From positions 1 through 54,836 of the forward strand of contig JAISFR010000095.1 in assembly GCA_031263565.1 (NCBI GenBank): 54,836 bases of DNA, in the 5' to 3' direction. The position numbers and the translations under genes were made by a program. The notes below the pieces were generated by a model. That model made no database searches, was not told the DNA's origin, and was given only the letters and a program-made list of their open reading frames with translations. Origin of the DNA: Candidatus Adiutrix sp. (GTDB taxonomy: Bacteria > Desulfobacterota > Desulfarculia > Adiutricales > Adiutricaceae). Positions 19,066-28,229 of this stretch are shown in pieces (the stretch's first letter is position 1; every line of letters begins with the position of its first letter).

Positions 19066-20556
19066 TCATTCTTCGACGGATTGGCCAGTTCCGGCCAGGG
19101 CCGGCCGGCTCTGCATAAAAGCTTCGGCCCGGTCCTGGGCGTTCTGGCGCAGGTCGTAGTAGTAAAAGGCATAATCCCCGGCCGGATAGGCCCAGCCGGG
19201 AAAATGGTCGCTCAGGTACTGGTCGCCGGAGACGGTGGAGCACTCCACCACCCCGCGCCCCAGGTTGACCCGGGCGTCGGCGAAGTCTCTGACCATGGAC
19301 TCCCCGCCGAAAATGCTCAGATTGGCCCCCCGGCTCTGATTGGCCCGGGCCGGACGCTGGCTCCGGCTCCAGTTGATGGGGTTGATGGCCACGGACTGGG
19401 GCAAAAGCGCCGGGCTGGCGCCCCCCTGCCTGGGGGCCTCGGTATTGTAGGAAATGATCACCCCGACGTCATCCCGCCGCTCGGCGAAGCGGAGATGGTC
19501 GTTGTCGTTCAGAAAATCGCTGTTCACCGAATAGCCCAGGGCGTAGGCGGCCACCATCCGGCCGCGGGCGGCCGGGTTGATGTTCTTTAAATAATGGGAC
19601 AGGATGCCGGCCAGGAGGGTGGCCGTGCCCTGGCCATGGGCGGCCAGGATGTAAGGGCGGCCGCCATTGTGGTTTTTCAGGTAATAATCAAAGGCGGCCA
19701 CCGAATCCGAAACGGAGGCCGAGAGCCTGGAAAGCCGGTCCTGAGGGCTTAAGCCCAGAAAAACCACTGAATTGGCCTGGCTGTAATAAGGCGCATAGAG
19801 ATTGCCGACCGTCTCGAAAACTCCGGCCTGAAAGCTGGCCAGTTCCCTGGCCTTCTGCCGCATGCCGGGATCGCCCGGTCCGCAGAGCGCCCCGCCCTGC
19901 CCGGCCCGGGCGCAGGCGCCGGGGTAAAGATAAAAGACATCCACCGAACGATCCGGAGAGTCGGGCCGCATCAGCCAGTTGTCGCCCTGGCTGTAGTCGC
20001 CGGCGCCGGCCGCATAGGACCAGGCCGGCGCCGGAGGCGCGGACGGCGCCAAGGGCGCGTAAGCCCCCGAAACCGGGGGGGCGGGACTTTCATAGACCGG
20101 GGGCGGGGGGGAATAATCGGCGGCCGGAGCCGGCGGCTGATATTCATCGGTCGCGGCGGGGTAGTCATAAGCCCCGGGATCGGGCAGATCCAGCCCGCCG
20201 GAAGCCGGCGGCCGCGCCTCATTTCGCTCCGGCAGATCGAGGCTCCCGGAAGCCGGCGGCCCGGCCGGAGCCGCCTGGTCATAAGGAGTCTGGTCATAGG
20301 GAGTCTGGTCATAGGGCGGAGGCGGAGAGACGAAAGCATCGGCCTCCGGCAGGTCGAGCCGGCCCGAGGCCGGCCCCGGAGCGGCCGGCGGAGCGCTCTC
20401 GCTGAAATCATCCTCCGAGGGATCGAAACTGTCGAAACTGCGGTACATGGAGTCGGTCTGGGCCTCGATCGGCGAGCCCGAGACCAACAGGCAGATCACT
20501 ATCAAGGCCAGCCGGGCGCCGAGCCCGGCTGTTTTTTTCACTCGCTCGTCAGTCAT
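19066..20556 (-). CDS. Secreted DUF3089 alpha/beta-hydrolase-like protein lacking the nucleophile serine
   Basis: A 496-residue exported protein. After a signal peptide (residues ~14-32) comes a Pro/Ser/Asp-rich linker of about 140 residues with three copies of an SGxLDLP motif and a YDQTPYDQTPYDQ repeat. The C-terminal ~310 residues match DUF3089: VDVFYLYPGACA, LYAPYYSQAN, a GRPYILAAHGQG elbow and late CSTVSGDQYLSDH. In most relatives the elbow reads HSQG with Ser as nucleophile; here the codon is GGC, giving HGQG. The protein is therefore probably not a classical esterase, or uses another mechanism. It lies 48 bases downstream of guaA and may share its transcript. Confidence 0.75.
   Translation of the reverse strand: MTDERVKKTAGLGARLALIVICLLVSGSPIEAQTDSMYRSFDSFDPSEDDFSESAPPAAPGPASGRLDLPEADAFVSPPPPYDQTPYDQTPYDQAAPAGPPASGSLDLPERNEARPPASGGLDLPDPGAYDYPAATDEYQPPAPAADYSPPPPVYESPAPPVSGAYAPLAPSAPPAPAWSYAAGAGDYSQGDNWLMRPDSPDRSVDVFYLYPGACARAGQGGALCGPGDPGMRQKARELASFQAGVFETVGNLYAPYYSQANSVVFLGLSPQDRLSRLSASVSDSVAAFDYYLKNHNGGRPYILAAHGQGTATLLAGILSHYLKNINPAARGRMVAAYALGYSVNSDFLNDNDHLRFAERRDDVGVIISYNTEAPRQGGASPALLPQSVAINPINWSRSQRPARANQSRGANLSIFGGESMVRDFADARVNLGRGVVECSTVSGDQYLSDHFPGWAYPAGDYAFYYYDLRQNAQDRAEAFMQSRPALAGTGQSVEE
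20273..20317. repeat. 15-bp tandem repeat in the DUF3089 linker
   Basis: Three near-identical 15-base units (core CTGGTCATA) run head to tail and encode the repeated YDQTP pentapeptide. Being in-frame, copy-number change would lengthen or shorten the linker without breaking the gene. Confidence 0.75.
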
Positions 20557-25769: not shown

Positions 25770-25802
25770 CGGGAAGCTTGACTCGGAATTAAGGGCATGC
25801 CA

Positions 25803-28229
25803 ATGAAAAGCGAAATCGGGTCACTGCTCAGCAAACCGGCCCTGTCTTTCTTCAGGCGTTTTGACTTCGTCAAATTCATGTCTTCCCTGGCCGAGCGGGA
25901 GCCCGGGGCCGGCTATATCCAACGGACCGAAACGCCCCCGCCCGGATTTGCCGACCAGGCCGACATCAGCCGCCTGGCCGCGGACCTGGCCGAGCGCTCC
26001 CTGGCTGAAAAGGGTGAGCCGGCCAGCCGCCAGGAACTGGAAACCCAGGCCGGACTCATCTCCTGCCGCTATGACGCCGATCTGCACCGCATGCTGAGGG
26101 CGGGCGTCAGCAACATCATCACCCGGCTCTTCGAATCCCGCGATCCCGGGAAACTCTTCATTTCGCATAACGGCCGGGAACTTCTGAACCTGCCCCGCCT
26201 GCGCCGGGCGGTGGCCGACGGCCGGGGGGTGGTTTATCTCATCAACCATTCCTCCCATTGGGACGAGTTCATCTTCAACGTCTTTCTGGATCACAACGGG
26301 CTCGGCATGCCCCTTTTCGCCGCCGGGCAAAACATGATGGCCACCCCCAGCCTGACCCGCATCTTCATGGTCGGCTCCTACGTCATTCTGCGCAGCGGGG
26401 CCAGCCGGACCTATCTCTCCACCCTCTTTCATTACTGCCAGGCCCTGGGGGAACTCGGGAAGCCCCAGGGCATCTTCCTGGAGGCCTGGTCCGGCGGAGC
26501 CCGGACCCGCGACGGGAGCCTCCGCTACCCCCGCCGGCTCATCGCCCTTCAGGGGGCCCTGGCCGCCCGCAACGATGTTCTGGTTCAGCCGGTGGTCATC
26601 AGCTACAGCCGGATCCCCGAAGACCTGGGGCTTTCCGAAGGGCGCAGCCTGGCTTCCTGGCTCAACGGGCACCACATGTTCCGCGAGCTTCTCAAGCGAC
26701 CCTGGCAGCCCGGGGAAAGCCTGATCAGGGGTTTGCAAAATCTCTACGGGCGAACCTATGTCGGCTTCGGCCGGGGCCGCCTGGTCTCGGAACTGGCCGA
26801 GGAACTGGCCGGGCAGAGCGGCAGCGAACTGACCCTGGATGAATACGCCTCCCTCTACGCCATCCGCGAAATCGCCCGGGACAAAAAAATCATGACCAGC
26901 CAGGTGGCCGCCCGGGCCCTGAGTCTGGCCGGGAAGAAATACCCGGCTCTGAACGAGGCCGCGGCCCGGGCCATCGGCGAAATAAGCGACTATCACCAGC
27001 GCACCTTTGGCCAGGATCCGGATTTCGAGGATTTCTTCAATGAACATGAACTGGCCGAAGCCCTGGACGACGGGCTGAAATCGCTGCGCATGCGCCAGGT
27101 CATCGGCCGGCGCCCCCTCATTCCGCGCCGCCTGCCTAAAATAAAGGCCCCCCACGGCCTGGCCTATTACGCCACCCACGCCGACCGGCGGCTTTACAGC
27201 CCCTCGGCCAAGGAAAATTTCGTGGTCTGCGGTTCCGGCCCCTGGGCCTTCGGCCTGGTCTCCTACCTGGGCCGGCGCACCCTGGGCGACAAAAAATACA
27301 ACAACTCCAGCCTGACTCTCTATGACCGGGATAAGGAGGCCATGACCCATCTGGCCTATGAACGCACTTTGGGAGAGTACTTTCCGGACTGGCGGCTGCC
27401 TAAAAACGTCTTCCCCACCCACGACCACACCGCCGCTTTCCGCAAGGCCACCGAAGTGGTGGTGGCCGTGCCCCCCCAGCAGATGGACGAGACCCTGAAA
27501 GTCATTCTGCGCGAAGCCCGGGAGCTGCGCAGTCTGATCATCGCCAGCCGGGGCTTTGATCCCCAGTCCCACCGGCTGACCATGCAGATCGCCTGGGAAG
27601 CGGCTGTGGCCGCCGGCCGGCCCAAAACCAGCATCCTGGCCTTGAGCGGGCCCTTCAGCCCCCTGGCCCTGACAGGCGACGAGGGCGGCCTCTGGACCCT
27701 GGCCGGCGAGGTTCGCGGGGGCCGGGCCTCGGAAGCCCTGCTTTTCAAATTCGGCCGTTTTCGGGTCACTACCAGCTCCGATCCCATCGGGCTGCAGATG
27801 ACCGCCGCCCTGGCCGACGCCTATGCCCTCTACGGCCTTTTCAGCGGCCGGCAGAAAAAACTGCGCGGCCAGCCTCTGGAGATGGCCGCTTTCGTGCGTG
27901 AAATCAGCGCCGAAGCCAAAAACCTGACCCTGGCCCTCGGCGGCCAGCCCCAGACTTTTGAAGCCGACAACCCGGCCTGGGTCTCGGAATTCATTATCCG
28001 CCTCATGAGCGGCCCCGGCCCCTCCCCCAACTGGCTCAATGCCCTGAAGGCCGACCAGCCCCCCGGGGAGCTGGTCCCGGCCCGCAAGGAATTGGCCGAA
28101 AAATGGCCCGACCCCTGGGTCACGGGTTATTTCTCCATTCATTCGGCCTATCTGACCGCCAAGCATCTGGGCTTGACCCTCCCCCATCTGGAGGAGGCCA
28201 ACCGCATTTTCTGGGCCGCGGGCGGCTGA
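25803..28229 (+). CDS. Fusion of a PlsB-like glycerol-3-phosphate acyltransferase and a GpsA-like dehydrogenase
   Basis: An 808-residue two-part protein. The first ~450 residues carry the acyltransferase motifs: HSSHWD (H149, D154), then SYVILRSGASRT, FLEAWSGGARTRDG and VQPVVISYSRIPE, as in PlsB/GPAT. From about residue 470 the protein resembles NAD(P)-dependent glycerol-3-phosphate dehydrogenase: VVCGSGPWAFG (G477, G479) is the dinucleotide loop, followed by LPKNVFPTHD, VVVAVPP, IIASRGFD and LSGPFSP. The catalytic-lysine block, normally GALKN, reads AALAD here, so the lysine is replaced by A671. The dehydrogenase half may therefore be inactive or regulatory. The ATG at 25803 has AAGGG 7 bases upstream and is preferred to 25797. 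It abuts the BtuC-like gene. Confidence 0.8.
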   Translation: MKSEIGSLLSKPALSFFRRFDFVKFMSSLAEREPGAGYIQRTETPPPGFADQADISRLAADLAERSLAEKGEPASRQELETQAGLISCRYDADLHRMLRAGVSNIITRLFESRDPGKLFISHNGRELLNLPRLRRAVADGRGVVYLINHSSHWDEFIFNVFLDHNGLGMPLFAAGQNMMATPSLTRIFMVGSYVILRSGASRTYLSTLFHYCQALGELGKPQGIFLEAWSGGARTRDGSLRYPRRLIALQGALAARNDVLVQPVVISYSRIPEDLGLSEGRSLASWLNGHHMFRELLKRPWQPGESLIRGLQNLYGRTYVGFGRGRLVSELAEELAGQSGSELTLDEYASLYAIREIARDKKIMTSQVAARALSLAGKKYPALNEAAARAIGEISDYHQRTFGQDPDFEDFFNEHELAEALDDGLKSLRMRQVIGRRPLIPRRLPKIKAPHGLAYYATHADRRLYSPSAKENFVVCGSGPWAFGLVSYLGRRTLGDKKYNNSSLTLYDRDKEAMTHLAYERTLGEYFPDWRLPKNVFPTHDHTAAFRKATEVVVAVPPQQMDETLKVILREARELRSLIIASRGFDPQSHRLTMQIAWEAAVAAGRPKTSILALSGPFSPLALTGDEGGLWTLAGEVRGGRASEALLFKFGRFRVTTSSDPIGLQMTAALADAYALYGLFSGRQKKLRGQPLEMAAFVREISAEAKNLTLALGGQPQTFEADNPAWVSEFIIRLMSGPGPSPNWLNALKADQPPGELVPARKELAEKWPDPWVTGYFSIHSAYLTAKHLGLTLPHLEEANRIFWAAGG

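Follow-up and report, generated by a model that had tools for sequence, protein, structure and literature searches.

A DUF3089 protein of Candidatus Adiutrix that has lost the nucleophilic serine and catalytic histidine of its family and is probably a pseudoenzyme

The DUF3089 domain (Pfam PF11288; lipolytic family XV) is best known from esterases such as Est10, MGS0012 and EstD2, and for Est10 and MGS0012 esterase activity has been demonstrated (PMC4431682, PMC5341072). Catalytic residues have been named as well: alanine mutagenesis of MGS0012 points to a triad of Ser193, Asp360 and His375 (PMC5341072), and in Est10 the modelled catalytic serine is Ser189, within a GHSQG motif (PMC4431682). 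The domain is classed among the alpha/beta-hydrolases in PMC11878206, from which it is also evident that pseudoenzymes with a hydrolase fold are an already known kind. DUF3530 (PF12048) is described there as bacterial, alpha/beta-hydrolase-like, lacking a triad and thought to be non-enzymatic, and the Arb2 domain (PF09757) as an inactive hydrolase-like domain that serves protein-protein contacts (PMC11878206). A search of titles and the beginnings of abstracts in the open-licence literature found no DUF3089 protein named as a pseudoenzyme. Neuroligins and NDRG proteins are further hydrolase-fold pseudoenzymes, and families of this kind, Arb2 included, are mostly eukaryotic.

Here we describe a DUF3089 protein encoded in the window, by which is meant the whole stretch of 54,836 nucleotides of Candidatus Adiutrix sp. 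that was analysed. It belongs to the same sequence family as the family XV esterases, with 10 of 14 invariant residues kept, and it shares with Est10, for which a signal peptide is predicted, a hydrophobic N-terminal segment; it differs from these esterases in lacking both the nucleophilic serine and the catalytic histidine and in carrying a long Pro-rich linker. With DUF3530 it has in common a bacterial alpha/beta-hydrolase-like domain without a triad, but DUF3530 belongs to another Pfam family, whose gene neighbourhood is conserved and includes LptD (PMC11878206), whereas the window gene shows no conserved neighbourhood in the genomes compared. Arb2 is likewise hydrolase-like but constitutes a separate family, with no direct relation shown. 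Our reading, to which we give a probability of about 0.8, is that the protein is a DUF3089 alpha/beta-hydrolase turned pseudoenzyme, probably a non-hydrolytic binder. The gene and its main parts are as follows.

19066..20556, minus strand: DUF3089 protein, 496 aa, ATG start (open reading frame; Pfam PF11288, E=1.1e-36)
20461..20556, minus strand: N-terminal hydrophobic segment, putative Sec signal peptide, residues 1-32 (by eye)
20401..20448, minus strand: N-terminal motif MYRSFDSFDPSEDDFS, residues 37-52, kept in the congener
19999..20400, minus strand: Pro/Ala-rich linker, residues 53-186 (composition and repeats)
19369..19944, minus strand: DUF3089 domain match, residues 205-396 (Pfam)

The PF11288 profile matches the protein with 126.8 bits, well past its curated cut-off of 23.4, and a search of NCBIfam returned nothing at E 0.01. 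The nearest homologue found (L003) comes from another species of the genus (genome G005), here the congener, and is identical at 200 of 297 domain residues (67%); close relatives in which the serine and histidine are intact are 37-45% identical. The putative signal peptide has a likely cleavage site at IEA|Q, and a similar segment in the congener ends LPA|Q, both judged by eye. The linker holds 35 Pro and 28 Ala in its 134 residues, with three ASGxLDLP boxes (LDLP at 67, 106 and 122) and a PYDQT tandem repeat (15-bp unit, 2.8 copies, 20275-20316). As an observation in its own right, the motif SFDSFDPSEDDFS (20401-20448, minus strand) has changed less from one species to the other than the linker has: 17 of 24 aligned residues are identical over residues 36-60, against 27 of 73 over residues 61-186, where the congener has diverged. 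The motif may serve in docking or sorting; a 56-residue query from this N-terminal stretch had no other match with E<0.2 in its own genome.

Besides the congener, 38 homologous places were compared, comprising L004-L018 (15), L022 from Gordonibacter, L023-L037 (15), the plasmid loci L042-L047, six out of 14 plasmid records identified, and L084. Most of these were found by their likeness to the window protein, and the search with the family profile in 395 genomes from the phylum, which contributed L084 and with it one added genome (G296), is free of that bias. Conservation was counted in 32 of the homologues, leaving out L013 with its in-frame TAG, the partially matching L030, the fragment L034, L036 (frame short or disturbed), L047 (C-terminal part out of frame) and L084. 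The residues around which the argument turns are these.

19633..19635, minus strand: Gly308 (GGC), nucleophile elbow; Ser in all other homologues covering the elbow
19183..19185, minus strand: Pro458 (CCG), replacing the catalytic His (alignment of homologues)
19918..19920, minus strand: Gly213 in the YPT turn, candidate oxyanion-hole residue; Thr in 31 of 32 homologues, Ser in the other

The elbow of the window protein is ILAAHGQGT, with codon 308 read as GGC from the complement of 19633-19635. The first-pass annotation had called this open reading frame, with the same coordinates and strand, and had pointed to an HGQG elbow with a GGC codon where relatives usually have HSQG, and on each of these points it was right; the serine is present in 36 of the 36 other places that cover the elbow, L034 and L036 being without coverage there. 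The window comes from a draft assembly (2.97 Mb, 145 contigs, 94.6% complete), and in a draft of this kind a misread or misassembled elbow has to be considered. Against such an error, the congener has the same residue by a different codon (elbow ILAAHGQGS, codons CAC GGT CAG GGC), and a second catalytic residue is also altered in both species. Two genomes with two glycine codons make a wrong base very unlikely, and base-calling error was rejected as an explanation, the chance that remains for it being negligible. The nucleophilic serine of GHSQG that marks a functional family XV esterase is thus absent from both proteins, which read AHGQG.

The same annotation had named what would overturn it, a true DUF3089 nucleophile at some other place that is conserved in this protein. 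Among the 32 homologues, however, column 308 is the sole invariant serine of the domain, and the mutagenesis and modelling papers agree on a serine nucleophile in GHSQG. A nucleophile elsewhere was rejected on this conservation count and we consider it very improbable.

In the same annotation the rest of the domain was thought to look intact, and in this respect the description does not hold, as the catalytic histidine has become Pro458 and the near-invariant threonine of the YPT turn has become Gly213. For the C-terminal motif GVYHxxDYxFYY the window protein has AYPAGDYAFYYY and that of the congener AFPGGDYAFYYY, with His changed to Pro in both; the distal histidine is present in all 37 of the other places that can be read at this position, only L047 being unreadable there. 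The triad of MGS0012 was mapped without its sequence, the nucleophile through the elbow serine as the only invariant serine, and His375 through position 458 as the only invariant histidine besides that of the elbow. By this mapping the histidine of a functional family XV esterase, His375 of MGS0012, corresponds to Pro458. Gly213 is common to both species, and from its place in the YPT turn we infer that the position probably contributes to the oxyanion hole.

Both species keep 10 of the 14 columns that do not vary among the 32 homologues; two columns (S308 and H458) are altered in both, and the remaining two are altered in one species each, P212 in the congener and R259 in the window. Set against the seven closest relatives alone, 74 columns are invariant, with 55 kept in both species, 12 altered in both and seven altered in one, and the 12 jointly altered columns include T213G, W215C, S308G and H458P. 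Asp461, Asp284 and the elbow His307, each found in 32 of 32 homologues, are kept in the pair. The third triad position is less easily followed: column 443, which lies 15 residues before the histidine as Asp360 does in MGS0012, is Asp in seven of seven close relatives and in 12 of 32 homologues overall; the congener also has Asp, the window protein has Ser, and the family as a whole shows no conserved acid at this position.

When 34 domain rows are placed in a maximum-likelihood tree, the window protein and its congener homologue are sisters with support of 100/100, and the pair is nested in a well-supported set of nine, within which the branching is not resolved and the other seven members keep both serine and histidine. 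The simplest account of these alignments and the tree would be that serine and histidine were lost in the common ancestor of the two species. The DUF3089 gene was found in two of the seven genomes of the genus, three of the seven being listed as less than 85% complete. Neither the window genome (G000, 94.6% complete) nor that of the congener (G005) has a second DUF3089 match, and a regulatory partnership with an active DUF3089 paralogue is unsupported, with one match in each of these carrier genomes. Searches of viral contigs and phages returned no relatives of the window protein, and a search of genome contigs returned one, L022.

Three of the homologues merit a comment of their own. L022, from Gordonibacter (Actinomycetota), falls inside the nine-row group of the window protein's relatives, and this placement suggests horizontal transfer. 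L013 (genome G049, contig 1) has its serine and histidine intact and an in-frame TAG immediately before the elbow (YN*GRP against YNQGRP), which would be either a nonsense change or a recoded codon. L047, on plasmid pRJH1 of Rhodococcus pyridinivorans, has its C-terminal part out of frame and its match region unannotated, and is possibly a pseudogene.

Loss of two catalytic residues could also be the beginning of decay, with catalysis gone and the open reading frame drifting toward a pseudogene, and the presence of the gene in only two of the seven genomes would fit such a course. Between the window and the congener the two copies have dN 0.24 and dS 1.16 (Nei-Gojobori), compared in the same two genomes with dN 0.108 and dS 0.74 for guaA and dN 0.169 and dS 0.89 for a metallo-beta-lactamase gene; the corresponding pN values of 0.21, 0.10 and 0.15 show that the DUF3089 pair evolves faster than these two neighbours in the window, which again is in favour of decay, as is the separate alteration of R259 in the window and P212 in the congener. 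Yet both copies are intact, 10 of the 14 family-invariant residues are kept in both, and omega=1 is rejected for the domain (2dlnL 177) as well as for the N-terminal motif region, residues 33-60 (2dlnL 18.7). The maximum-likelihood omega for the domain is 0.020 (bootstrap 0.000-0.103), in a fit near saturation that leaves its size uncertain, and the fit for the linker is degenerate; since dS is near saturation, we rely on the rejection of omega=1 rather than on the point estimate. Between the two species purifying selection acts on the domain, and a decaying gene, rejected on these selection tests, is an improbable explanation. The gene thus remained constrained after its catalytic residues were lost, with a protein that changes faster than those of guaA and the lactamase gene.

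The glycine had also been taken to mean that the protein might rely on another residue, and two positions within the domain are of interest in this respect.

19912..19914, minus strand: Cys215, also in the congener; Trp in all 7 close relatives, no Cys among the 32 homologues
19204..19206, minus strand: His451, also in the congener; no His in the 7 close relatives, His in 2 of the 32 homologues

Catalysis could have been repurposed, with another nucleophile such as Cys215, or an activated water, and another base such as His451. Cys215 lies two residues after Gly213, and its occurrence in both species where seven close relatives have Trp and none of 32 homologues has Cys is in keeping with this, as are the three cysteines outside the signal segment of the window protein (215, 225 and 439), the retention of Asp461, Asp284 and His307, and the His451 of both species, seven residues before Pro458 and rare elsewhere. 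But the serine and histidine of the family are both gone, and in MGS0012 loss of either residue greatly cut activity (PMC5341072); reliance on another residue is less likely because the catalytic base has been lost too. Furthermore, L009 and L015 have a histidine at 451 alongside a normal catalytic histidine, so that a histidine at this position does not by itself indicate a new base. We regard repurposed catalysis as unlikely. Judged from the alignments, Cys215 and His451 could belong to a new site, or could represent mere drift in a pocket freed from catalysis. A narrower version, in which the pocket would have been rebuilt around Cys215 and His451 to give an exported thiol-based enzyme, an acyl carrier or a ligand sensor, is a speculative one that we hold to be slightly less probable still; were it true, it would mean new chemistry in a dead esterase, on a hydrolase scaffold.

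The reading we prefer remains that of a pseudoenzyme, which the first-pass annotation had put forward as a protein used for binding and which is now well supported by the loss of two of the three published triad positions, by a second species that is altered alike and by purifying selection; on sequence grounds, both marks of a pseudoenzyme, catalytic residues lost and the protein kept by selection, are found here. The ancestor of the two species would have lost the nucleophilic serine (now Gly308) and the catalytic histidine (now Pro458), and the YPT turn, a probable part of the oxyanion hole, would have changed too, from Thr to Gly213. With serine and histidine gone no ester hydrolysis by the mechanism of the family is expected, that is, the domain would carry out no Ser-His hydrolysis. 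The protein would be exported by way of its N-terminal signal and the domain displayed on the Pro-rich linker, either in the periplasm or at the surface of the cell, where the old pocket may still serve to bind a partner protein or a ligand of an ester-like, lipid or polymeric kind. The export signal, the linker, the conserved N-terminal motif and the selection on the gene together make it likeliest that the protein acts outside the cytoplasm as a binder or a scaffold.

As DUF3089 is known for its esterases, a selected branch without nucleophile and base means that annotation based on the domain can mislead. It would furthermore offer a testable bacterial case in which an esterase fold is exported and has come to serve in binding, and relatives intact in serine and histidine are available for comparison.

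Structural comparison adds little to this. AlphaFold2 models built from two sequences are weak, with a mean pLDDT of 41 for the window protein and 37 for L022. When the weak window model is used in a Foldseek search, acyl protein thioesterases head the matches (best E 3.3e-4, with a query TM of only 0.27), a result that would agree with a hydrolase fold but proves little. Among solved structures there is no sequence match to the window protein, and the family profile finds weak matches only (best E 0.11).

The surroundings of the gene are not conserved. In the window, guaA lies upstream, 47 bases before the start of the DUF3089 gene, which is followed on its 3' side by the metallo-beta-lactamase gene and by those of an M48 protease and a trypsin-PDZ protease, every one of them on the minus strand. 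In the congener the DUF3089 gene is flanked by other reading frames, and the DUF3089 gene, guaA and the lactamase gene are each on separate contigs; in a further genome (G003) guaA and the metallo-beta-lactamase gene are ~190 kb apart. Because the neighbours vary between genomes, the surroundings point to no ligand.

Elsewhere in the window, 25797-28229 on the plus strand encodes an 810-aa protein with an acyltransferase domain, weakly PlsB-like, and a glycerol-3-phosphate dehydrogenase-like domain. It scores above the Pfam cut-offs for both domains and well under those of NCBIfam, and its make-up suggests that two phospholipid-precursor steps have been fused.
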